Source: an uncultured Anaerolineae bacterium (GTDB lineage Bacteria; Chloroflexota; Anaerolineae; J036; Brachytrichaceae). Taken from it: DNA of 64,000 bases. The translations under genes and the position numbers were made by a program. The first letter of the stretch is position 1. Each line of letters opens with the position of its first letter. Below are positions 1,264 through 23,328 of the stretch, in pieces. Location of the stretch: contig CALBEF010000021.1 of the NCBI GenBank assembly GCA_937927775.1, positions 1 to 64,000 on the forward strand, in the 5' to 3' direction. The notes under the pieces were generated by a model that worked only from the letters and a program-made list of their open reading frames with translations, ran no database searches and was not told the DNA's origin.

Positions 1264-1419
1264 ATGAACGATCAGGTACCGGCGAAGTGGAAGTCGCTGT
1301 TCACGAATGAAGAGTGGCTGGAGCACCAGTTGGTCGTGTACGGCTCGTGGGCGTTCTTTGCCGTCGCGGTCATTCTCCACATCGTCTTCTTCAGCGTGAA
1401 GCCGTGGGTTACCCAGTAG
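1264..1419 (+). CDS. pufB: light-harvesting protein beta subunit (51 aa)
   Basis: Beta polypeptide of the antenna around the reaction centre; one membrane helix that binds bacteriochlorophyll. Translating 1264-1419 gives 51 residues: a polar N terminus with an EEWLEHQLVVYG segment, a helix at about residues 23-43, and a C-terminal KPWV. His39 in AVILHIVFF is the expected bacteriochlorophyll ligand, and a second His lies 18 residues earlier (His21), the spacing typical of beta chains. AGGAGG at 1250-1255 is the ribosome site. It is the first gene of pufB-A-L-M-C, 60 nt before pufA. Too short for ordinary ORF length filters. Confidence 0.93.
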   Translation: MNDQVPAKWKSLFTNEEWLEHQLVVYGSWAFFAVAVILHIVFFSVKPWVTQ

Positions 1420-1479
1420 AGACGGAAAGTCTCTCCAGCCTGCTTGTGTGAATCGCATGCAGAAAGGGAAAAGGCAGAC

Positions 1480-1611
1480 ATGAAAGAATCCAAGTATCTG
1501 GAATTCCGCACGACTCTGATTCTCTACATGGTGCTCGGAGCGGTGATGGCCCTGCTGATCCACTTTGTGGTGCTCAGCTCGGACTACAACACCTTCTGGC
1601 TCAGCAAGTAG
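1480..1611 (+). CDS. pufA: light-harvesting protein alpha subunit (43 aa)
   Basis: Alpha polypeptide pairing with PufB in the antenna ring. The 43 residues comprise a short charged N terminus (MKESKYLEFRT), one hydrophobic helix at about 12-33 with His28 in ALLIHFVVL as the likely bacteriochlorophyll ligand, and a short aromatic tail. The start is weakly marked: AAAGG about 5 nt upstream and no full Shine-Dalgarno. It follows pufB in the same orientation and is separated from pufL by a 275-nt gap holding a long-range hairpin. Position and paired helices leave little doubt about the call. Confidence 0.9.
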   Translation: MKESKYLEFRTTLILYMVLGAVMALLIHFVVLSSDYNTFWLSK

Positions 1612-1630
1612 TCTCTTAGTTATTATTGTT

Positions 1631-1711
1631 GCCGGCGAGTCGGCAGGGTCTCCTGGTGCGCGGTCGAGAAGGGTGAGAGAGGGCGTCGGGAGAATGGGTC
1701 GATTCGCCGGC
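1631..1711 (+). terminator. hairpin in the pufA-pufL gap
   Basis: Arms 1631-1642 (GCCGGCGAGTCG) and 1700-1711 (CGATTCGCCGGC) pair over 12 bp with one G-U, enclosing 57 nt. No U-tract follows, so it is more likely an mRNA 3'-end stabiliser or partial terminator than a full stop. In purple bacteria a hairpin at the same place lets pufBA mRNA outlast pufLM mRNA; that role here is inference. The rest of 1612-1886 shows no gene. Confidence 0.5.
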
Positions 1712-1886
1712 ATTATCGTAACTCGCACAGTCAACAGTTCATTGCGAGCGTGCGCCGGCCGAGCCAGAGGGAGTTCAGTACAACCGAACGCGATTATCCC
1801 TGATCATTTGTTTGCTCAGCCAGTCCTCCCCGGCTCCCGCGAACCACACTCGCCCTGCAAGATGCAACCTCATAAGGAGACGAGCG

Positions 1887-2741
1887 ATGCTTTCATTTGA
1901 AGCAAAGTATCGTCGTGAGGCGATGGACGTCCCCGGCATGCCGCTGTTGGGGCTGGGCCTGCTTAAGTTCTGGGTAGGCCGGTTCTATATCGGTTTCTGG
2001 GGCCTTATCGCGCTTCTGTTTGGTCTGATTGGAGCTGGTGTCTGGTTCTGGCGCGTTGTTCTTCTCGACGCCACTCGCACCGGGAATCCAATCATCAACT
2101 TCGTGCGCGGCCAAATTGAAGTGCCATCGCCTGACGTCGGCCTGGGATTAACCACTGATCCATCGAAAGGTTTGTGGTGGCTGGTGGTTATGTTCTGCGC
2201 CACCATCACGTTCATCGCCTGGATGATGCGCCAGGTGGATATTTCGCGCATGTTGAAGATGGGCTACCAGGTGCCCATCGCATTCGGCGTTGCTGTGTCG
2301 GCCTGGGTGACCATCCAGATCGTGCGCCCTATTCTGCTCGGCCACTGGTCAGAGGGTTTCCCCCTCGGCGTGATGGCCCATCTGGACTGGTTGTCGGTCT
2401 TTGGCTATCGCTTCTTCAACTTCTACTACAACCCATTCCACGCGCTGGGCATTGCTCTGTTGTTCGGCAGCGGTCTGGTGCTGTCTCTGCACGGCGCAAC
2501 CATTCTCAGCGCCGCCGGCAGGAAGAAGGAAGGCGTCACAGAGCATAATATCAACGTGTTCTACTGGGACTTCCTGGGCTATAGCATCGGCGAGATCGGC
2601 ATTCACCGCCTGGCCTTCTGGACGGCGCTGATGTGTGTGTTGCTCAGCAACCTGTGTCTGGTGCTGTCCGGCACCCTGGTTCAGGACTGGAGCGCATTCT
2701 GGAACTTCTGGAACAAACTCCCGTTCTGGAGCGGATTCTAA
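1887..2741 (+). CDS. pufL: photosynthetic reaction centre L subunit
   Basis: L subunit of the type II reaction centre: five membrane helices holding half of the special pair, the active-branch pheophytin and quinone. ATG 1887 is chosen over the upstream ATG at 1812 because AAGGAG lies 7 nt before it; the product is 284 aa. Visible ligands: His of HLDW (accessory bacteriochlorophyll, L153 in purple numbering), His of YYNPFH (special pair, L173), His of LHGATIL (iron, L190) and His of IGIHR (iron, L230). It is a separate gene, not fused to pufM as in Roseiflexus. 13 nt separate it from pufM. Confidence 0.97.
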   Translation: MLSFEAKYRREAMDVPGMPLLGLGLLKFWVGRFYIGFWGLIALLFGLIGAGVWFWRVVLLDATRTGNPIINFVRGQIEVPSPDVGLGLTTDPSKGLWWLVVMFCATITFIAWMMRQVDISRMLKMGYQVPIAFGVAVSAWVTIQIVRPILLGHWSEGFPLGVMAHLDWLSVFGYRFFNFYYNPFHALGIALLFGSGLVLSLHGATILSAAGRKKEGVTEHNINVFYWDFLGYSIGEIGIHRLAFWTALMCVLLSNLCLVLSGTLVQDWSAFWNFWNKLPFWSGF

Positions 2742-2754
2742 GTAGGAGGCAGCC

Positions 2755-3669
2755 ATGGCATCAGAGATAACGCGCGTTGAATCGGCTGACTGGCGGACGA
2801 CCAGGCGCTTCTACCTCAAGTTCCTCGAAGGATTGGCCGACACGCAGATCGGCCCGATCTACATCGGGGTATGGGGCGTCTTTGCGCTGTTCTTTTTCGC
2901 CATCACCGTTTTTGTCATTCTGTTTGGGTATCTCCAGCAGGTGGGATATAACCCCATCCTGTTCGTGCGGGAGTTCCCTGTGTTGAGCGTCGAGCCGCCG
3001 GCCCCCGGCTATGGCCTCAAGCTTGCGCCGTTGGCGGAGGGTGGATACTGGCAGATTGCCACGTTCTTCCTGACGCTGTCGATCGTGTTTTGGCTTATCC
3101 GCATCTGGTCGCGCGCCATCGCCAATGGGCTGCGCCCGACTGTGCCCATCGTCTTCACGTCTGCCATCTTCCTGTACGCCGCCATCTACATCATCCACCC
3201 CATCTCGATGGGCGCCTGGAACGAAGCGCCGGGGCATGGTCTGCGCGCCCAGCTCGTGTGGGCCAATGCGTTCAGCATCAAGTACGGCAACTTCTACTAC
3301 AACCCGTTCCACATGGTCTCGATCTTTGGCCTGCTCGGCTCTTGTCTGTTGCTGGCTATGCACGGCGCGACCATTCTGGCGGTTGTGCGGCTGAACGCGC
3401 ATCGCGAGATCGACGAGGCTGAGAACAGCACCGAGGGCACGCACCGCGCCCAGTTGCTGTGGCGCTGGGTGATGGGCTTCAACGCGACAGCCACCAGCAT
3501 TCACACCTGGGCGATCGCCATCGCCGTAGTGTCCATGGTGACCGGCGCGCTTGGCGTCATCTTCTCCGGCACCCTCGAGCCGGACTGGTTCCAGTGGGCG
3601 TGCCGGGCCGGCATTGTGCCTGGTGTGATCCAGCCCGGCGCTGCCAACGTGGCCGCGTGTTTGCGATAG
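2755..3669 (+). CDS. pufM: photosynthetic reaction centre M subunit
   Basis: M subunit, partner of PufL; 304 aa with five membrane helices and AGGAGG just upstream of ATG 2755. Counting back from the iron-ligand His of AMHGATIL (M219), the special-pair His of NPFH falls at M202 and the Glu of HREID at M234; the second iron His is in TSIHTW. The position equal to M182, which binds the B-side accessory bacteriochlorophyll in purple bacteria as His, is Gln here (RAQLVW). Loss of that His is expected where a bacteriopheophytin replaces the pigment, as known for Chloroflexota centres. Numbering is by hand alignment from memory. Confidence 0.97.
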   Translation: MASEITRVESADWRTTRRFYLKFLEGLADTQIGPIYIGVWGVFALFFFAITVFVILFGYLQQVGYNPILFVREFPVLSVEPPAPGYGLKLAPLAEGGYWQIATFFLTLSIVFWLIRIWSRAIANGLRPTVPIVFTSAIFLYAAIYIIHPISMGAWNEAPGHGLRAQLVWANAFSIKYGNFYYNPFHMVSIFGLLGSCLLLAMHGATILAVVRLNAHREIDEAENSTEGTHRAQLLWRWVMGFNATATSIHTWAIAIAVVSMVTGALGVIFSGTLEPDWFQWACRAGIVPGVIQPGAANVAACLR

Positions 3670-3681
3670 GAGGAGCATGCC

Positions 3682-4827
3682 ATGAGCGCTCAACAAGACA
3701 CCACCCCGCAAGGGGCCATCGCTGTGTACGATGAGAAGCAGGCCGGCATCCTCCGTTTGGAAGCGTTCGGCCTCGTCGCAGTCAGCATTGTTGTGCTCGG
3801 TCTCGTTGTTCTGGCGTTTCTGTTGTCCAGGGGCCTGGCGTCGGCGTTCACGTATCGCGGTGAGCACACCTACAACTACGCCGGCATCCAGATGGTTGAC
3901 ATCAACGCCTACATTCAGCAGCGCAAGGTGCAGGTGCAGCCTGTTAGCGCCGAGGCGCTGACCGCCTACAACGAGTGGGCAAGCCAGAATCCCAGGACCG
4001 TTAATGTTCAGGTGCTGAACCAGTACCTCGGCGACGACTACAACAACACCGGCACGATCTTCAACTACATGATTACATACTTCTCCGGCGGTTTGGGGGT
4101 GAGCTGCGAGTACTGCCACAATTTGCAGAACTTCGCTGCTTATGAGCTGCCCCAAAAAACAACCGCCAAGAACATGTTAGTCATGCAGTTCGAAGTCAAC
4201 AACAAGTGGATCAACACTGTGCCCCGGCCCGAAGGCCAGCCTCTGTACCAGATTCAATGCGCCACATGCCACGTCGGCGCGCCGAAGAACTGGAACAACG
4301 CGCTGAAGGCCAGCAACCCGGCCGCGTTCGGCATTGAAGGCGGCGGCCTGCCGTATGGCTATGACATGCTCGACGAGCAGTTGCTGAAGACCCGCCCCGA
4401 CCCGCAGACCGGCGAGGTGAACTACTACAAGGTCACGGCGACTAAAGACACGCCGGCCGGCCTGAACGACACCTATCGCAACCAGAACCAGATGTATCAC
4501 CAGACGGTCGCGCTCGGCGTTGGGTGCGATTTCTGCCACTACGGCGGCTATTTCGCGTCCTACTACGTCGAGAATGGCAGCTTCAAGTGGCCGAAGGCCC
4601 AGGCCCGGCACATGATCGGTATGGTGCAGGACCTCGCCATCAACTGGTGGCCGCAGATGCAGTTCCCCGCGCCGGACACGGTCGCGCAGCCCAACTGCTA
4701 CATGTGCCACCGCGGTCTTGTCGTGCCGCCTGGCGCGTCGAACACCGCTCCCCAGCCGGCCCAGGTCAGCGCGCCGTTGATCAGGCCGCTCGAGGCGTTG
4801 CCCATCCCGAAGCCGGTGACGCCGTAA
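3682..4827 (+). CDS. pufC: tetraheme cytochrome c of the reaction centre
   Basis: Bound cytochrome that re-reduces the special pair. The 381-aa product has one N-terminal membrane helix (about residues 27-50) and no lipobox, so it is anchored by the helix, followed by a periplasmic domain. Four haem motifs are present: CEYCH (residue 142), CATCH (193), CDFCH (282) and CYMCH (339). GGAGG lies 10 nt before the ATG at 3682. It is the last gene of the pufBALMC run; a perfect hairpin follows its stop. A Pro-rich tail closes the protein. Confidence 0.96.
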   Translation: MSAQQDTTPQGAIAVYDEKQAGILRLEAFGLVAVSIVVLGLVVLAFLLSRGLASAFTYRGEHTYNYAGIQMVDINAYIQQRKVQVQPVSAEALTAYNEWASQNPRTVNVQVLNQYLGDDYNNTGTIFNYMITYFSGGLGVSCEYCHNLQNFAAYELPQKTTAKNMLVMQFEVNNKWINTVPRPEGQPLYQIQCATCHVGAPKNWNNALKASNPAAFGIEGGGLPYGYDMLDEQLLKTRPDPQTGEVNYYKVTATKDTPAGLNDTYRNQNQMYHQTVALGVGCDFCHYGGYFASYYVENGSFKWPKAQARHMIGMVQDLAINWWPQMQFPAPDTVAQPNCYMCHRGLVVPPGASNTAPQPAQVSAPLIRPLEALPIPKPVTP

Positions 4828-4893: not shown

Positions 4894-6222
4894 ATGTCAA
4901 TCAACAAACGCCTGCTGCGCCTGAGCCTGTTCCAGTTCGGACTGGGGTTCAGTGTGGTCGTCTTCAACGGCGCGCTCAATCGCGTGCTGATCGCAGAGGA
5001 GGACATCCCCGCCTCGATCGTGGGCTGGCTGCTCAGCCTAAGCCTGTGGGTGGCGCCGGTGCGCGTGCTAATGGGGGTGTGGTCTGACCGCGAGAAGCGC
5101 ACGTTCGGCTTCCGCCGGCTGCCTTACATCTGGTACGGCATGATGATGGTGTTCGCGGGGTTGTCGGCTTCACCTCTGACGCTGTGGCTGCTCAGCCGCG
5201 CATCTCAGTTCGGGCCGGGACATACGCCTTTTACCATCTCTGTAGCCGTTTGCACGTTCATCTTCTTCCTGTACGCGATCGGCTCGCACATCGCCCAGAC
5301 GGCCTATCTGGCCCTCGTCACCGACCTGACGCCCAAACAGGAGCGCGGCAAAGCCGTCGCCTTCCTGTGGATCATGCTCATCATCGGCCAGATCGTCAGC
5401 GCCCTGATCATCGGCGTCTGGCTGACGGACTTCTCTCCCTTCAAGCTGATCCAGGTCATGCAGACCGGCGCAGTCGTGTTCATCGTGTTTGGCCTGGTTG
5501 CCATTTACCGTCAGGATCGCCCTGTTCACCTTGAAGAAGACCCTGAAGGCGGCGCCAAAAAGCTGTTCGCCCTGCTCTCCAAACCCGCCAACCGGCTGTT
5601 CTTCCTCATTGTGTTTGTGGGCACGCTGGGTCTCAACGCGCAGGATGTGCTGCTTGAACCCTATGGCGGCCAGGTGCTGGGCATGTCGGTCACTGAAACT
5701 ACGCGCCTGACGGCCCTGTGGGGCGTTGGGATGCTGGCGGCGATGTTGATCGCCTCGCGCGTTGTCCCACGCCTGGAATCGCCCCTGCCGGTTACGCTGG
5801 CCGGCTGCCTGATCGGCCTAACCGGTTTTCTGCTCATCAGCACCACAAGCCAGATGAAATCTGTGCCACTGTTCGCCCTTGGCGCAACCATTGTCGGGCT
5901 GGCCGGCGGCTTGTTCCTCATCTCCACCCTGTCTCTGGTGATGGGGCTGGCCGACACCAGAACAGCCGGCCTGTACGTTGGCCTGTGGGGATTGATGCAG
6001 ACCACGGCCATGGGTCTGGGCAGCATCACCGGCGGCGGCGTGCGCGACCTGGTCTTTCACACATGGGGCGATGTCACGCTGGGCTACGTCGCCGTCTACG
6101 CCGCCGAAGTCGTGTTGTTGATCGTCACGTTCGCGCTGTTGATCGCCATGCCGCGCAAGGCATTTGTGTCACGTCCAGCGGAGAAGTCCGCGTTCGCAGG
6201 CTTGACCGACATCCCCGGCTAG
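4894..6222 (+). CDS. PucC/LhaA-type (BCD family) MFS protein, copy 1
   Basis: Twelve-helix major-facilitator protein of the bacteriochlorophyll-delivery group, whose members PucC and LhaA help assemble light-harvesting complexes in purple bacteria. The 442 aa begin with a helix containing FGLGFSVVVFNGALNRVLI, and a loop with GVWSDREKRTFGFRRLPYIW matches the family signature after helix 2. It follows the pufC hairpin closely and belongs to the photosynthesis run. No clear Shine-Dalgarno precedes ATG 4894. Cargo (pigment or antenna protein) is not determined. A second member lies at 7576-9000; the two are clearly different sequences, not a recent duplication. Confidence 0.88.
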   Translation: MSINKRLLRLSLFQFGLGFSVVVFNGALNRVLIAEEDIPASIVGWLLSLSLWVAPVRVLMGVWSDREKRTFGFRRLPYIWYGMMMVFAGLSASPLTLWLLSRASQFGPGHTPFTISVAVCTFIFFLYAIGSHIAQTAYLALVTDLTPKQERGKAVAFLWIMLIIGQIVSALIIGVWLTDFSPFKLIQVMQTGAVVFIVFGLVAIYRQDRPVHLEEDPEGGAKKLFALLSKPANRLFFLIVFVGTLGLNAQDVLLEPYGGQVLGMSVTETTRLTALWGVGMLAAMLIASRVVPRLESPLPVTLAGCLIGLTGFLLISTTSQMKSVPLFALGATIVGLAGGLFLISTLSLVMGLADTRTAGLYVGLWGLMQTTAMGLGSITGGGVRDLVFHTWGDVTLGYVAVYAAEVVLLIVTFALLIAMPRKAFVSRPAEKSAFAGLTDIPG

Positions 6223-6244
6223 CCTGCAAGATGGAGGACAACGT

Positions 6245-6424
6245 ATGATATCCGGCACCGAGACCGTTCTGTGTCTCGTCTTGTTGGCTTTCGGCGCCGT
6301 CGGTTTCCTGGTCGCATTCATCTTCACCGATCGCAATGCTGTCCAGGAAAGCGGAATGCCAGAACATGCCGAGGCTGAAGTTTCTGAGCAGCCGGCAGCC
6401 AGTGCTGCCCAGTCGGAAGCCTGA
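6245..6424 (+). CDS. small single-helix membrane protein (59 aa), unrecognised
   Basis: Not recognised. ATG 6245 has GGAGG at 6233-6237, a good ribosome site, which argues the gene is real. The 59 residues hold one strongly hydrophobic helix (about residues 7-27, LCLVLLAFGAVGFLVAFIF) and an acidic Ala/Glu-rich tail. It sits 22 nt after the first PucC-like gene, on the same strand, inside the photosynthesis cluster. Single-helix accessory subunits (PufX/PufW types, subunit X of the Roseiflexus core complex) are known in reaction-centre complexes, so an accessory or assembly role is a reasonable guess from size and place, not from sequence similarity. Confidence 0.7.
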   Translation: MISGTETVLCLVLLAFGAVGFLVAFIFTDRNAVQESGMPEHAEAEVSEQPAASAAQSEA

Positions 6425-6516
6425 ACATCCAGGACGTGCAGCCGGCCTCGCGCGCTCATCAAAGCTGCCGGCCGGCTGCGCGCGCTGGAGCGCGCGCTCC
6501 CCGGCGCGCTGAACCC

Positions 6517-7038
6517 ATGTCCGAGAGCACCGATTCCATCGTCTACAGCCTGGTTGCCTGTGCAGGCACGCTGGTCCTGGCGCTGCTGGTCGTCACCTTT
6601 GTGGTGTCTGCCACTGCCCGACGCATCACCCTGCATCGCGCCCGCGTCGTCCAGGCCTGGAAGCGCCAGGGGATGCGCTTTGTGCTTGGCCCTGCCCACG
6701 CCAATTTCCTGAACCGGCCCCGCAGCATTGGCTCCGGCGGCAACGGCACACTCCTGCTCAGCGCCGACGCTCTGCGCTTTGCGCAAGTGACGCCCGACCG
6801 CGAGATTGTCATCCCGCTGCGAGACATCCGCCGCGCTGTGCTGGCGCGCGCGTTCAATGGCCGGCGCGGAGGGCCTTTCCTCATCATCGAGCGCGCCATC
6901 GGCGACCTGACCGGCTTTCAGATCGAACAACCCGAACGCTGGGCAGATGCCATCAATGCCGCGCTGGCCGGCGCGGCGTCCGGCGCTTCAGACTCATCTT
7001 CTGCGGCGCGCGCGCCCGCCCCGGCCACCGCATCCTGA
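6517..7038 (+). CDS. membrane-anchored protein with a possible PH-like domain, unrecognised
   Basis: 173 aa from ATG 6517, preferred over 6436 because the extra N terminus is Arg/Ala-rich and lacks a hydrophobic start. One N-terminal helix (about 9-30), then a cytoplasmic domain with GSGGNGTLLLSADALRF and VIPLRDIRRAVL, a pattern of short strands resembling bacterial PH/GRAM-like folds, then an Ala/Ser-rich tail. Function unknown. The coding-like codon use and position between two PucC-like genes suggest it is part of the same transcript. The PH-like idea is weak and rests on reading the strand pattern by eye. Confidence 0.6.
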   Translation: MSESTDSIVYSLVACAGTLVLALLVVTFVVSATARRITLHRARVVQAWKRQGMRFVLGPAHANFLNRPRSIGSGGNGTLLLSADALRFAQVTPDREIVIPLRDIRRAVLARAFNGRRGGPFLIIERAIGDLTGFQIEQPERWADAINAALAGAASGASDSSSAARAPAPATAS

Positions 7039-17627: not shown

Positions 17628-18797
17628 ATGACCCCGCGCATGATCGCCATTTACGGCAAAGGCGGCATCGGCAAAAGTTTCTTCACCGCCAACCTGACCG
17701 GCAAAATGGCGCTGAAGGGATTGCGTGTGCTGCAACTTGGATGCGACCCGAAACATGATTCGTGCAACGCCCTGTTCGACGGGCGCAGCCTGCCCACCAT
17801 CGGCGATCAGTGGCGGCTGATGAAGGAGGCCGGCCACGAGAAAGAACTGGATGTCAGTCACCTGATCTATCGCACCGACCTGACCGGTCGGGGGCATGTG
17901 GTGTTTGGCGCGGAACTGGGCGGGCCGGAAGTCGGGCGCGGCTGCGGCGGGCGCGGCATCTCATTCGGCTTTGGCCTGCTTGAGGAGCGCGGCATGGCCG
18001 GCTGGGCGCTCGACTACATCGTGATGGACTTCCTGGGCGATGTGGTGTGCGGCGGCTTTGCCACGCCCATCGCCAAAAGCATGGCCGAAGAGATCATCAT
18101 CGTCGCCTCGCACGATCGCATGAGCCTGTACGCGGCCAACAACATTGTTCGGGCCGTGAACTATTTCGCCGGCATGGGCGGCAAGTCGCGCGTCATTGGC
18201 ATGGTGCTGAACCGCGACGATGGCAGCGGCGTAGCTGAGCGATTCGCCGCGCAGGTTGGGCTGCCCATCCTGCTCAAAGTGCCCTATAGCCCGGCTGCCC
18301 GCGCCCTCAGCGACCGCTGCAAGCTGCTGTTCGAGTTGCCGGAGATGGACGCGCTGTTCGATCAGTTTGTCAACAAGATTCATTACCGCGACTACGCCAC
18401 CCCCGAACGCCTGACGCCGCTGGAATACGGCGAGTTTCTGGAGGTGTTTGGCGCTGCCGAGCCGCCCGACTTGCCGCAATCGGCCACCCTCCAGGAGTTG
18501 ACCGGCCGCGCCGCCGGCCCTGCGCAGGGGGTTGACCTCAACAGCCCTGAGTACAGCGACGATGCGCGTTTGATCGTGCGCCGCATCATGGCCGACATGG
18601 GCCTGACTGTCACGCGCCTGGTTGAAGAGCCGGAGCGCGGCGTGGTTGTCACCAGCGATCAGGGCTGGGAAGCCATCTTCGGCAATCCGCGCGAAGAGAT
18701 CGACGCCAAGATTGCCATTTTGTCCGCCCTCAGTCACAGCGGCGAAAAGTTCCACCTGGCCGACCTGCGCCACACCGCCGCTCCGTTTTACGAGTGA
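17628..18797 (+). CDS. bchX: chlorophyllide reductase iron protein
   Basis: ATP-dependent Fe-S electron donor (NifH-like homodimer) of chlorophyllide a reductase; passes electrons to BchYZ for ring-B reduction. 389 aa, ATG 17628 preceded by GGAGG. P-loop YGKGGIGKS at residues 9-17; 4Fe-4S ligand Cys in GRGCGGRG and DVVCGGFATP. Compared with BchL/NifH it has the C-terminal extension typical of BchX (about residues 285-389). Flanked on both sides by heptamer repeat tracts instead of ordinary spacers. Confidence 0.96.
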   Translation: MTPRMIAIYGKGGIGKSFFTANLTGKMALKGLRVLQLGCDPKHDSCNALFDGRSLPTIGDQWRLMKEAGHEKELDVSHLIYRTDLTGRGHVVFGAELGGPEVGRGCGGRGISFGFGLLEERGMAGWALDYIVMDFLGDVVCGGFATPIAKSMAEEIIIVASHDRMSLYAANNIVRAVNYFAGMGGKSRVIGMVLNRDDGSGVAERFAAQVGLPILLKVPYSPAARALSDRCKLLFELPEMDALFDQFVNKIHYRDYATPERLTPLEYGEFLEVFGAAEPPDLPQSATLQELTGRAAGPAQGVDLNSPEYSDDARLIVRRIMADMGLTVTRLVEEPERGVVVTSDQGWEAIFGNPREEIDAKIAILSALSHSGEKFHLADLRHTAAPFYE

Positions 18798-18946
18798 TGA
18801 GTGATGAGTGCGGAGTACGTGTTCCGTATTGCGTGTTGCGTGTTGCGTATTCCGTATTGCGTGGCTCGCAATCCCCGCTCTTTCATCTGCACTCCGCCAT
18901 CTGACGACTGACTACTGACTACTGACTACTGACTACTGACGACTCC
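18798..18946 (+). repeat. two-module heptamer repeat between bchX and bchY
   Basis: Same design as the tract before bchX: TTGCGTG/TTCCGTA units (about 18828-18865), a linker containing CATCTGCACTCCGCCATCTGA, then CTGACTA/CTACTGA units (about 18902-18943). It ends 2 nt before the bchY ATG, so the last unit (GACGACTCCCA) occupies the ribosome-binding region and no Shine-Dalgarno is left. Confidence 0.92.
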
Positions 18947-18948
18947 CA

Positions 18949-20322
18949 ATGGAAACCCAACCAACCACCCCCTCGCACGATGTGTCTGTGTCGCCCGATC
19001 AGGCGTTGACGCCGCAGACGATGTGCCCGGCCTTTGGCAGCCTGCGTGTGCTGACGCGCATCGATGGCGTGCAGACGGCTATGGTCACCGACACCGGCTG
19101 TTTGTACGGCCTGACCTTTGTGACGCACTTCTACGCCGCCCGCAAATCCATCGCAGCGCCGGCGCTGGGCACGCAGGAGCTGATGGCCGGCAACATTGCC
19201 GAGGCCGCGCGCGCGGCCTGTGAAGAAGCCGCCCGCGCGCCTGGCACAAAGCTGGTTGCTGCGCTGTCCTTGTGCGTAGCCGAGACCGCCGGCCTGACCG
19301 AGGAGATGTTGCCCCCGCAGATCAACGGCGCGGATGTGGTGCTGGTGCGCGTGCCGGCCTACGCCATTCACTCGCACCCCGAAGCCAAAGATGTCGCCAT
19401 CAGCGCGCTGTTGAAGAAGTTCACCGCGCCGGCCCGTCCTGCCGATGCGCAGGGCGTCGAACAGCCCCTGACCTGGGATCAGCCCGCAACCTCGGCAGAA
19501 GACCTGAGCCGCAAGGTCATCATGCTGGGCGAGGTCTTCCCCGCCGACCCGATCACGGTAGACGCGGCGCTGAAGAAGATGGGCGCATCGCTGGCGGCTA
19601 ATTTGCCCTCGCGCAGCCTGGATGATTACAGGATGGCCGGCAAGGTGGGCGCGATTGCCGCGCTGCACCCGTTCTACGCGCAGAGCGTGGCGACGCTGCG
19701 CGCCGCCGGCGTGCCAATTGTCAGCGGCGCGCCGATCGGCGCAGAAGGCAGCTATGGCTGGCTGAAAGGCATCGGCAACGCGCTCAAGCTCGATCCTGAT
19801 CTGGTCGAGGCCGTTGCTGTCGAAGAGCGCGACAAATGCCGCGCCATCATCGCCGCCAATCCTCTCAGCGGGCGCATTCACATTTGCGGCTACGAGGGCA
19901 ACGAGCTGGGCTATGCCCGGCTGCTGGTCGAGGCCGGCGCGCAGGTGCCCTACATCAGCACGTCCATCGAAAAGTCGCTCTACACCGCCGCCGACGAAGC
20001 CTGGTTGAAGGCGCATGGCACGATTGAAGTGGTGTATCGCAAGAAACTGGAGCAGGACATGGCGGCGCTAGATCGCTACCATCCCGATCTGGTGCTGGGC
20101 ACTACGCCGCTTTCGGCGGCGGCGAAGGCGCGCGGCATCCCCGGCCTGTACTACACCAACATGCTCAGCGTGCGCCCGCTGTTTCTCAGCGCCGGCCTGG
20201 CCGGGACCATCGGCCTGATTCGCGACGCCCTGTCGCGCGCGCCGCGCTATCAGTGGATGCGCGAGTTCTTCACCGGCGAGGCAGCCCCCGTCGTCTCTGC
20301 TCCTGTCAATACGCTGGACTGA
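18949..20322 (+). CDS. bchY: chlorophyllide reductase subunit Y
   Basis: NifD-like catalytic subunit of chlorophyllide a reductase, pairing with BchZ. 457 aa from ATG 18949. Likely Fe-S ligand Cys residues occur in TMCPAFG, TDTGCLYG and LSLCVAE in the N-terminal third. The following Rossmann-like domains contain VAALSLCVAETAG and IHICGYEGNELGYARLL. The start abuts a repeat tract and has no visible ribosome site, which may lower translation or mean the true start is slightly different. 35 nt separate it from bchZ. Confidence 0.94.
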   Translation: METQPTTPSHDVSVSPDQALTPQTMCPAFGSLRVLTRIDGVQTAMVTDTGCLYGLTFVTHFYAARKSIAAPALGTQELMAGNIAEAARAACEEAARAPGTKLVAALSLCVAETAGLTEEMLPPQINGADVVLVRVPAYAIHSHPEAKDVAISALLKKFTAPARPADAQGVEQPLTWDQPATSAEDLSRKVIMLGEVFPADPITVDAALKKMGASLAANLPSRSLDDYRMAGKVGAIAALHPFYAQSVATLRAAGVPIVSGAPIGAEGSYGWLKGIGNALKLDPDLVEAVAVEERDKCRAIIAANPLSGRIHICGYEGNELGYARLLVEAGAQVPYISTSIEKSLYTAADEAWLKAHGTIEVVYRKKLEQDMAALDRYHPDLVLGTTPLSAAAKARGIPGLYYTNMLSVRPLFLSAGLAGTIGLIRDALSRAPRYQWMREFFTGEAAPVVSAPVNTLD

Positions 20323-20357
20323 TTCGCTCAATCCATCACATCTCACAACAACGCGCT

Positions 20358-21848
20358 ATGGACCAATCCAAAATCGAGCTGATCCGCGACCTGGACACCA
20401 CCAGCGGCTACTGGGCGGCGGTGTGGACGATGTGCTGCCTGCCCGATGTCCATGTGGTCTGTGACGCGCCGATCGGCTGCTTCAACCTCGTCGGCACAGC
20501 CGTGCCCGATTACACCGACGCCATCCCGCACATTGACAACCTGACGCCCTCGGTGATGCGCGAGCAGGAAGTGACCATGCTGGGCACCGCCGGCGCCGTG
20601 CGCCGCGCGGTCGAGGCTGTTCGCGCCCGGCATCCCGACCGGCAAATCATCGTGGTCAGCACTGCCGAAAGCGAGATGATCTCGTCCGATCACGCCGACT
20701 GGTTGGACAAGCTCGACCCGCCCGTGCCGTTTTACTGGAGCCGCTCGCTGGAGGAAGATGAATGGGCCGGCCGCGACCGCGCCCTGCTCTGGTTATGGGA
20801 ACGCTTTGGCGCGGCGCAGGCCGGCAGCATTGCGCCGCAGGCCGGCGTGGTCAACATCATCGGGCCGACGTATGGCTGCTTCAACGCGCCGGCTGATCTG
20901 CACGAGATCAAGCGATTGATCGAAGGCGCCGGCGGACGGGTCAATCTCGTGTATCCCTTTGCGGCGCGCCTGAGCGACACGCTTCGCCTGATCGAATCCG
21001 CCGTCAACGTGGTGATGTACCGCGAGTTTGGCGAAGGGCTGGCGCAGGCGCTGGGCCGGCCTTATCTCTTTGCCCCGCTCGGCATCCGCGAGACGACCGA
21101 CTTCATCCGCGAGCTGGGCCGGCTGTTGGGAACCGAAGCGCAGGCCGAAGCCTTCATCGAACAGGAGAAGCGCGACACGCTGCAACCGCTGTGGGATTTG
21201 TGGCGCGGGCCGCAGGGCGACTGGTTCCCCACCACCGAGTTCGCTGTTGTGGCCGGGCGCACCTATGCTGACGGGCTGGTGAAATTCCTCGGCGATGAGC
21301 TGGGGATGCGGCCTGTGTTTGCCACCGGCCGGCCGGTCAAAGCCGGCGAAATGGACAACCTGGCCGCGCGCGAATTCCTGCACAAGCGGCAGCCCGGTTT
21401 TGTCTTCGGCAGCATCAACGAGAAGATTTACCTGGCCGAGGCCGGCGCGCGCGCCACGCACTTCATCCCGGCCAGCTTCCCTGGCCCGATCGTGCGCCGC
21501 GCGCTGGGCACGCCCTTCATGGGCTATTCCGGCGCGGTGTACCTCGTTCAGGAAATGGTCAATCGGTTCTACGAGTCGGTCTTCAACTTCCTGCCGATCG
21601 ACACGGTGAAGCCTGCGGCGCCGGCCGGCCCGCCCGGAGCGCCTGTTGCGCAGCCGGCCGGGCGGGTGGCATGGACTGACGCCGCCCGCGCGCAGCTTGA
21701 TGCGCATTTGGAAAACATCCCCTGGCTCAGCCGCATCAGCGCCAGCCGCGATCTGCGCGCGCAGGTCGAGGGCTATGCCCTGCGCAATCAGATCGCCGAA
21801 GTGACGCCCGAAGTGGTCGAGCGCGCGCTGCAGGGAGCAGCCATCTGA
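20358..21848 (+). CDS. bchZ: chlorophyllide reductase subunit Z
   Basis: NifK-like subunit; with BchY forms the tetramer that reduces the C7-C8 bond of chlorophyllide a. 496 aa from ATG 20358; the longer frame from 20253 overlaps bchY and is rejected. An N-terminal Cys-rich stretch (TMCCLPDVHVVCDAPIGCF) supplies the Fe-S ligands. The C-terminal 100 residues include an Ala/Pro-rich linker and then a three-helix tail with AQLDAHLENIPWLSRISASR, which is conserved in protochlorophyllide and chlorophyllide reductase large subunits. Confidence 0.95.
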   Translation: MDQSKIELIRDLDTTSGYWAAVWTMCCLPDVHVVCDAPIGCFNLVGTAVPDYTDAIPHIDNLTPSVMREQEVTMLGTAGAVRRAVEAVRARHPDRQIIVVSTAESEMISSDHADWLDKLDPPVPFYWSRSLEEDEWAGRDRALLWLWERFGAAQAGSIAPQAGVVNIIGPTYGCFNAPADLHEIKRLIEGAGGRVNLVYPFAARLSDTLRLIESAVNVVMYREFGEGLAQALGRPYLFAPLGIRETTDFIRELGRLLGTEAQAEAFIEQEKRDTLQPLWDLWRGPQGDWFPTTEFAVVAGRTYADGLVKFLGDELGMRPVFATGRPVKAGEMDNLAAREFLHKRQPGFVFGSINEKIYLAEAGARATHFIPASFPGPIVRRALGTPFMGYSGAVYLVQEMVNRFYESVFNFLPIDTVKPAAPAGPPGAPVAQPAGRVAWTDAARAQLDAHLENIPWLSRISASRDLRAQVEGYALRNQIAEVTPEVVERALQGAAI

Positions 21849-21918
21849 AGCCGCCAACTTTCCCAACTTTGCGAACCTTACCAACCTTACCAACTTTACC
21901 AACCTTCCTGACCCACTC
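21849..21918 (+). repeat. short tandem repeat after bchZ
   Basis: About six loose copies of an ACCTTACCA/ACTTTACCA unit with a 9-10 bp period. It fills almost the whole gap between bchZ and the next ATG (21921) and leaves no Shine-Dalgarno. Different unit from the heptamers but the same habit of filling spacers. Confidence 0.75.
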
Positions 21919-21920
21919 CC

Positions 21921-22526
21921 ATGCACAACTACTTCATCGGCGACAACGGCGTGTTCGACACGCCCCTGGCAGCGGCGCTGTTCTCGATCATTCTGATCGG
22001 CTTCATGCTGATCGAAACCCGTTTTAAGATTCGCGCCCCGCGCGACGCCAAACGGGAATCCGCGCGCACTTTTCTGCCGCTGGCGGTTGCCATTCCCATC
22101 AGTCTGCTTGCTCCGTTGATGTGCGGATTTTTGAAACTGGGCGTGATACGCGGCGACATGCGCGGCACATGGGTGACGCTGGGCGTGCTGATGATGGCCG
22201 GCGGGCGCTTGTTGCGCGCGTGGGCGCAGATGCACATGCGCCATCTGTACATCGGCGAAGCTGCCGTGCAGCCGGGGCATCGCGTGGTGGACACCGGCCC
22301 CTACCGCTGGATTCGCCATCCCGGCTATGTCGGCGGCACGCTGACTGCCATCGGCATCGGCCTGGCGTTGTCGAGCTGGCTGGGCGCACTGTTGGCGGGG
22401 CTGGTTCTGGCCGCTGCTTATACCATTCGCATCCCACGCGAGGAAGCATTGCTGGCGCAGGAAATGGGCGACGCCTATCGCACTTACATGGCGCGCACCA
22501 AACGGTTCATCCCGTATTTGTTTTAA
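21921..22526 (+). CDS. isoprenylcysteine-carboxyl-methyltransferase-like membrane protein
   Basis: 201 aa, four to five membrane helices. The C-terminal half has the ICMT/phospholipid-methyltransferase signature: GPYRWIRHPGYVGG (SAM/headgroup region) and a closing RIPREEALLAQEMGDAYRTYMARTKRF, rich in the usual E-E-x-x-L pattern. Bacterial members methylate lipids or are of unknown substrate; no prenyl-cysteine proteins are expected. Its position directly after bchZ suggests it may act in pigment, quinone or membrane modification, but this is context only. Confidence 0.8.
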   Translation: MHNYFIGDNGVFDTPLAAALFSIILIGFMLIETRFKIRAPRDAKRESARTFLPLAVAIPISLLAPLMCGFLKLGVIRGDMRGTWVTLGVLMMAGGRLLRAWAQMHMRHLYIGEAAVQPGHRVVDTGPYRWIRHPGYVGGTLTAIGIGLALSSWLGALLAGLVLAAAYTIRIPREEALLAQEMGDAYRTYMARTKRFIPYLF

Positions 22527-22542
22527 GATCAGGAGGCAGGTG

Positions 22543-23328
22543 ATGGATTTGCAAACCTGGCGCGCGGCCCAGCACAGGCCGGTTGACCGCGCGCGGCTGT
22601 ACGACATTCTGAAAAACAAGATGCGCCTGAAGCGCGAGCCGGTGGCGATCACCTATTGCGATGGCGCGCCGCCGGCCGGCTACGCGCCCGCCCGTGTGCC
22701 GGTGTGCGCCATTGTGCATCTCGCGGAGCAGGGGCAGAAAGTCTATGTGGACGCCGAGCATCATGATTGCTTTGTCGGGCAATATCATCTCGGCCTGATG
22801 ACGCCGGAACAGGCCGGCCCGCTGATCTGCGACGGCGAGTATCTGGCGCTGGAGCAGGGCTTCTTCACCCCCGAGGCCGCCCGGCGCAACAAGCAGAACA
22901 GCTTCACTTTGCCGGCTGGAACCATTCAGGCCATCGCCGCTGCGCCGTTGAAGGATTTGCCCGAAGACGCGCCGATGGATTTGCTCATTGCCATCACCGA
23001 CGCGCTGCGCGCCATGCAACTGGCCGGCGCGGCTGCCGTGCGCGAGGGCACACCGCCGCATGGCGAGCTGGGGCCGTCTTCGTGCTCGTCTATCTTTGCC
23101 GCGCCGTGGCTTACTCAGAACACGGTCTTTGCGCTGGGCGAGGGTGGGGGCCGGCGTTTTAACGCGCTGGACGCCAGCGAGCTGTTTGTCGCGTTGCCGG
23201 CGGGGCACATCCCCTGCGTGATCGAGATGTTCGACAATTTTTGGTTCAAGCCGGACGCGGTGCATCATTTGCTGATGCCCAGCCACGCCCGGCCAAACCC
23301 GGATCAATCACTGCCCGATCGCGGCTGA
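22543..23328 (+). CDS. DUF169 family protein
   Basis: 261 aa; start at ATG 22543 with AGGAGG six nt upstream (a GTG at 22540 is also possible). Resembles the DUF169 (COG2043) group: an N-terminal KREPVAITYCDG strand, several Cys residues (ITYCDG, PVCAIVH, HDCFVGQYH, LGPSSCSSIF) and the block GHIPCVIEMFDNFW. No biochemical role is known to me. Cys clusters hint at metal or cofactor binding. It is the last plus-strand gene of the first bch block and overlaps the convergent hydrolase gene by 25 nt. Confidence 0.75.
   Translation: MDLQTWRAAQHRPVDRARLYDILKNKMRLKREPVAITYCDGAPPAGYAPARVPVCAIVHLAEQGQKVYVDAEHHDCFVGQYHLGLMTPEQAGPLICDGEYLALEQGFFTPEAARRNKQNSFTLPAGTIQAIAAAPLKDLPEDAPMDLLIAITDALRAMQLAGAAAVREGTPPHGELGPSSCSSIFAAPWLTQNTVFALGEGGGRRFNALDASELFVALPAGHIPCVIEMFDNFWFKPDAVHHLLMPSHARPNPDQSLPDRG

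Follow-up and report, generated by a model that had tools for sequence, protein, structure and literature searches.

A 59-residue single-helix protein encoded behind lhaA in a Roseilinea-type phototroph, a putative reaction-centre subunit of the protein Z/protein h family

The window analysed here, 64,000 nucleotides of a contig of an uncultured Anaerolineae bacterium, contains at positions 6245–6424 of the forward strand an open reading frame (ORF) encoding a 59-residue single-helix protein, which groups by sequence with the protein Z/protein h (Z/h) family known from Roseiflexus; the host is a Roseilinea-type phototroph of the class Anaerolineae, the Roseilinea group consisting of hot-spring bacteria. 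Profile comparisons show that this protein is homologous to Z/h and to chain N of PDB entry 8YDM, and the family is strictly linked with reaction centres (RCs). Very probably, the protein is the Roseilinea version of Z/h, a minimal H-like helix of the RC-LH core located between RC-M and the inner ring. In the literature covered (titles, abstract openings and passages), no protein of this family is described from Roseilinea.

The small gene behind lhaA

The ORF belongs to a photosynthesis gene cluster that begins with pufB, pufA, pufL, pufM and pufC, encoding antenna beta and alpha, RC L and M, and the cytochrome (1264–4827, forward strand, upstream of the ORF in the same direction). These are followed by a PucC/BCD-family gene (4894–6222, forward strand), directly upstream of the small ORF, whose product is 37–38% identical to purple LhaA and 25% identical to the second PucC of the window, and which was assigned to the LhaA type since it is nearer to purple LhaA than to its own paralogue. 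Behind the small ORF come two ORFs of no known family, the second PucC gene, bchF, bchI and bchD (the last called from its position and its similarity to bchI), and, further along the cluster at 17628–23310, bchX and bchY with a gene of the DUF169 family, whereas the small ORF lies at 6245. The initial annotation had sited the ORF between genes for antenna assembly, which is correct insofar as PUCC-family genes lie on both sides, the second of them after two intervening ORFs.

The ORF starts 22 bp 3' of the stop of the LhaA-type gene, had been overlooked by annotation tools and is present in a single copy in the 3.55-Mb host assembly, where the window lies on contig 21. Its length is poor evidence for a gene, because 132 ORFs of at least 50 aa overlap the first 20 kb of the window, and it is conservation that decides. 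The LhaA-type PucC has orthologues of at least 61% identity in 13 Roseilinea-family genomes, the host counted, and a small ORF lies directly 3' of the orthologue in 12 of them (11 of 12 without the host); at the thirteenth locus (L008, genome G020) the contig stops 43 bases past the PucC match, so that the spot is missing. The genomes G631, G677 and G697 likewise carry a small ORF 3' of PucC, 26–86 bp past the match. The order of an lhaA-type PucC and a small ORF is thus found in 15 of 16 Roseilinea-family RC genomes and in 15 of 15 where the spot can be read, which is what the initial annotation had proposed to look for in phototrophic relatives. A GGAGG ribosome-binding site (6233–6237, forward strand), already described there as good, precedes the ATG by 7 nt, and similar sites precede the ORFs of the relatives. 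Nei–Gojobori counts for eight pairs gave dN of 0.00–0.10 against dS of 0.27–1.41; between the window ORF and that of Ca. Roseilinea mizusawaensis the substitutions are mostly silent (dN 0.10, dS 1.03), and other pairs within the family gave dN/dS counts of 0.00/0.52 and 0.07/1.41. The conserved position, start and ribosome site, together with the low dN/dS, confirm at the sequence level that the ORF is a real gene under purifying selection, and they leave a negligible chance that it is spurious, even though a G+C-rich window such as this one carries many chance ORFs of similar length.

A strong stem-loop follows the ORF (6425–6520, forward strand; -58.2 kcal/mol, z -3.7) and is probably a transcript 3' end or a processing site. 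Relatives have stem-loops at the same place 3' of the gene, with T-runs in G004, G007 and G011, and this terminator-like arrangement, taken with the stem-loop of the window, suggests that the small gene may end a puf-lhaA-h transcript. The next frame, orfA (6517–7038), encodes 173 aa with a predicted helix and then a soluble part; it has no Pfam or NCBIfam match, and its structure prediction (pLDDT 49) is uninformative. Among the loci examined, orfA neighbours h only in G002 (87%) and G009 (58%). It occupies the place that puhB has in purple bacteria, and a comparison with purple PuhB, PuhC and PuhE revealed no similarity.

AlphaFold2 modelling from an 11-sequence alignment predicted one helix spanning residues 4–36 (codons at 6254–6352, forward strand), presumably transmembrane, with a mean pLDDT of 94–98 across residues 11–30 and a tail of low confidence. 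The single helix noted in the initial annotation is thereby also predicted by modelling; the acidic tail noted with it is not a feature of the family, most relatives having a short tail of mixed charge. The arginine after the helix and the absence of arginine or lysine before it tentatively suggest an N-out/C-in orientation. Scans of the 59-residue protein against Pfam and NCBIfam assigned it to no family, no Pfam family scoring above its cut-off.

Relationship to protein Z/h and to 8YDM chain N

In 2018, the 63-residue protein WP_041331144.1 was put forward as a candidate for the Roseiflexus "subunit X" (PMC5908803), and two papers of 2023 re-assign this former "subunit X" (PMC10516601 and PMC10432797). 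According to PMC10516601, the helix of protein Z lies between RC-M and LH-alpha 11, with a periplasmic N-terminus and a cytoplasmic C-terminus; in PMC10432797, protein h is assigned to the site of the H-subunit helix, and its gene lies 10 kb downstream of puf. The relation to the H helix is disputed, PMC10432797 reporting an exact overlap and PMC10516601 no match. One 63-residue sequence is common to the PDB entries 8HJU, 8HJV, 8IUG, 8IUN, 8J5O and 8J5P, where the chain is called 'SUBUNIT Z' or 'reaction center small polypeptide'; since a single sequence stands under both names across the six entries, Z and h are one protein. Genome G203, which we take to be Roseiflexus RS-1, contains, some 10 kb downstream of its puf genes, a 63-residue ORF that matches the PDB SUBUNIT Z with an E-value of 1.1e-34. 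The entry 8YDM can be recognised as a Chloroflexus RC structure, because its chain M is matched over the full length by the M subunit of a genome that encodes chain N (E-value 1.7e-216). Chain N itself, 64 aa long and deposited as a 'hypothetical protein', has its gene in each of the 23 Chloroflexaceae genomes searched and, judging from the profile comparisons below, belongs to the Z/h family.

The comparisons were based on alignments from which near-duplicates had been dropped, namely of 11 distinct Roseilinea proteins from 12 genomes (A1), six Roseiflexaceae Z proteins from seven genomes (A2) and 14 Chloroflexaceae chain N proteins from 23 genomes (A3). A4 contained Z and N only, with 15 sequences (five of A2 and ten of A3), A5 and A6 contained 14 and 12 sequences, and the joint alignment A7 contained 20 (eight of A1, five of A2 and seven of A3). 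Profile–profile alignment gave an E-value of 3.8e-6 and a score of 32.2 for A1 against A2, 9.6e-6 and 30.8 for A1 against A3, and 6.5e-4 and 22.0, with a probability of 27.6%, for A2 against A3. As controls, 41 membrane-helix segments of Chloroflexaceae PucC were used, cut as 60-column windows with a step of 10 from 23 of 30 PucC orthologues; the best control scores were 19.7 against A1, 19.5 against A2 and 13.4 against A3, the 41 segments not being independent because they overlap each other. All three groups align through the helix in one ungapped register. Across the 20 rows of A7, C10, L14 and T28 do not vary and A32 is present in at least 90% (C10 to A32 corresponds to 6272–6340, forward strand); the residue after T28 is D or N, both of which occur within Roseiflexaceae.

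Genome-wide searches lead to the same gene. In a blind test, the Z/N profile A4 run through the six frames of the host genome had the window ORF as its top match (E-value 0.0028); among 13 genomes, its top match was the ORF after lhaA in six and was not in seven, including G020, which lacks the region. The joint profile recovered a member in a fourth lineage, G579, with an E-value of 1.3e-8. Single-sequence and single-profile searches did not join the three groups at formal significance. A1 against the PDB gave two weak matches, one of them 8ydm_N at an E-value of 1.8, and no match to Z up to E 10; the best non-member for a profile of Roseilinea and Roseiflexaceae was again 8ydm_N (E-value 0.18), and a profile of Roseilinea and Chloroflexaceae did not find Z in the PDB at E 10. 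Against 400 Chloroflexota genomes, A1 was convincing only in the Roseilinea family, the next best match being an 800-aa frame with an E-value of 0.001.

Only about 30 residues can be aligned, the pairwise scores are weak and composition alone can make short helices resemble each other, so that the link to Z and N might be imagined as a convergence of unrelated short helices, in which case the Roseilinea protein would be a lineage-specific RC-associated helix of unspecified place. The ungapped register with its common C, L, T-[DN], A pattern, scores well over those of the membrane-helix controls (32.2 and 30.8 against 19.7 at best), the blind whole-genome matches of A4 and the recovery of G579 make such a convergence very unlikely, and homology is the preferred reading. 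The R. castenholzii protein (63 versus 59 aa) shares with the Roseilinea protein a single helix, a gene in the photosynthesis cluster and an ungapped alignment with equally spaced C, G, T-D and A, but the identity is about 30%, its N-terminus is longer, its tail is different and its gene, as seen in its relatives, stands between bchX-DUF169 and bchY and not after lhaA. Chain N is of similar length and has the helix pattern LC...G...F..T[DN]..A, but it is 13–20% identical over the whole alignment, has Asn in place of Asp after the conserved Thr and a basic tail, and is encoded between bchX and bchI.

Distribution among Chloroflexota and gene neighbourhoods

The type II RC family PF00124, used as the RC marker in a sample of 400 genomes across Chloroflexota, was found in 38 of them. 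The joint profile A7 matched exactly these 38 genomes with E-values of at most 4.2e-16, a count that is not blind, because about half of the 38 supplied rows of the alignment or near copies of rows; the best score among the 362 RC-less genomes was an E-value of 7.7e-5 in a 222-aa frame. Separate searches had first found the groups, in 23 of 23 Chloroflexaceae and seven of seven Roseiflexaceae as well as at the Roseilinea loci. A class sample contained RCs in 17 of 396 genomes, of which nine were new to the count and eight of these nine had a member, the remaining one being the cut locus of G020; 12 RC-less Roseilinea-family genomes gave no family match below E 0.07. In total, 46 of 47 Chloroflexota genomes with an RC encode a protein of the family, against none of the 362 RC-less ones. 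The genome G001, from the genus of the host and 87% complete, showed no RC genes, close LhaA-type PucC or protein h; either the cluster has been lost or the assembly is incomplete.

In 30 genomes of Chloroflexia, the small membrane ORFs detected behind the PucC orthologue were parts of PucC itself and a few dissimilar ORFs, and the relative was therefore sought elsewhere in the genome. All seven Roseiflexaceae genomes show the succession bchX, DUF169, Z, bchY. In Chloroflexaceae, the chain N gene is followed by bchI in all 23 genomes and has bchX upstream in 22, the contig of the remaining genome starting too near; eight of the 23 have a complete DUF169 gene between bchX and chain N, and three have remnants of one. 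Since bchX and DUF169 are neighbours common to both genes, the link between Z and N is supported independently of sequence. The Roseilinea family has the gene after lhaA and not in the bchX-DUF169-h order of Chloroflexia; this order is not a defining feature of Z/h, but the difference counts against the assignment. In the window, a DUF169 gene (22567–23310) sits inside the photosynthesis cluster; considering that DUF169 also lies between bchX and Z or N in many Chloroflexia, its product may act in bacteriochlorophyll or RC biogenesis.

G579, which has a fused pufLM, shows the order bchX, h, bchY. Its member of the family (L218:18680-19201, 174 aa) combines an h-type helix with a helix-hairpin-helix domain (HHH_5, E-value 8e-7) at the C-terminal end and is encoded between bchX and bchY.

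Place in the complex and comparison with the H subunit and other small subunits

Small single-helix core proteins are also known as PufX, PufW and the Roseiflexus subunit X, and the initial annotation had likened the ORF product to these and supposed that it shapes the antenna ring and the quinone path. A ring-gap protein of this kind would agree with the comparable size and single helix and with a gene that follows puf and an LhaA-type gene; in Rhodobacter, pufX likewise ends the puf operon. The Pfam and NCBIfam libraries include a PufX model, and no PufX-type family matched at E ≤ 1; no sequence link to the three proteins was found, and their place in the complex differs from that of Z/h. 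The family profiles searched against the PDB found no 32-residue subunit X chain at E ≤ 10 in a library that may not contain that chain, and led instead to Z/h and chain N. Furthermore, the current Roseiflexus subunit X has only 32 aa (PMC10516601), and its gene adjoins genes of iron-sulfur proteins (PMC10432797). The ring-gap reading is accordingly given very little weight, and nothing was found that ties the protein to a quinone path or a gap. What stands of the earlier proposal is a small subunit of the RC-LH core, still the most likely identity, though one that groups by sequence with Z/h, whose site beside RC-M is remote from the ring gap, and not with PufX, PufW or, very probably, subunit X; the likeness to subunit X holds only for the 63-residue homologue that bore this name in 2018, and the 32-residue protein now so called is a different one.

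The place of the helix can be proposed from the Roseiflexus structures, where Z/h adjoins RC-M and touches an alpha subunit of the antenna (PMC10516601, PMC10432797). By analogy, we infer that the Roseilinea protein sits where Z/h sits, as one transmembrane helix with the N-terminus outside and the C-terminus in the cytoplasm, between RC-M and the inner antenna ring and at or near the site of the helix of the purple H subunit. Its role would be that of a minimal anchor resembling H, steadying the L-M core as a third partner and the contact of the core with its ring, and it would probably be needed early in assembly, alongside the assembly factor LhaA, which is encoded just upstream.

Perhaps the product could instead work with LhaA during assembly without remaining in the core as a permanent subunit, since its gene is directly 3' of lhaA at all 15 readable Roseilinea-family loci and LhaA associates with RCs in Rba. 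sphaeroides (PMC10214105). This seems improbable, given that the homologues Z and chain N were resolved in purified complexes and that Chloroflexia have no such gene after their closest PucC homologue. The order lhaA-h parallels lhaA-puhA, which suggests a shared assembly step.

In six of six purple records, puhA, encoding RC-H, is located directly 3' of a PucC/BCD-family gene, and puhA follows lhaA in Rba. sphaeroides (PMC10214105). PuhA of purple bacteria thus resembles the Roseilinea protein in the position of its gene directly after an lhaA-type gene and, following PMC10432797, in the place of its helix, but its large cytoplasmic domain and its conserved REGYPLE stretch are both absent from the 59-residue protein; with this length and no Pfam family above the cut-off, no cytoplasmic PRC-type domain is present. 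The hhalign comparison of A1, A2, A3 and A7 with seven H N-termini gave E-values of 0.04–0.5 and scores under those of the best controls, and thus revealed no sequence similarity of protein h to the H-subunit helix. The same slot and the same gene order are therefore suggestive of common descent, not proof of it. Another protein to compare is RC-Ht of Gemmatimonas phototrophica (about 7.7 kDa), in which the transmembrane part of a split H subunit forms a protein of its own; it too is short and helix-only, and it occupies the H-helix site of a type II RC or has been proposed for that site (PMC10214105). RC-Ht is probably the 67-residue chain H1 of 7O0U; the sequences of helix-only H chains can be recognised as H-like, whereas protein h shows no such likeness.

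RC-bearing Chloroflexota have been reported in the literature as lacking an H subunit; an H-family search over 43 genomes had no match, and its positive controls had none either. It is tentatively possible, if rather doubtful, that h is the universal minimal H of the H-less type II RCs of Chloroflexota, either as a remnant of an ancestral H or as an independent solution. As a remnant, it would be an ancestral H stripped down, with the lhaA-puhA gene order surviving in Roseilinea; as an independent solution, it would have come to occupy the H site of the complex, with its gene behind the same assembly gene as puhA. The fusion protein of G579 resembles the H subunit in its layout of a helix plus a soluble domain; with the HHH domain on the presumably cytoplasmic C-terminal side, H would be a modular helix with varied cytoplasmic domains.

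In 2023, a Roseiflexus structure paper suggested from a single metagenome sequence of 91% identity that further Chloroflexi may have a helix like protein h (PMC10432797). With the present data, this suggestion becomes a near-universal rule for RC-bearing Chloroflexota of two classes; an unnamed chain of 8YDM obtains a family, and every RC-LH structure from the phylum can be examined for the product of this gene. An old question thereby becomes testable, namely what replaces H in an H-less type II reaction centre.
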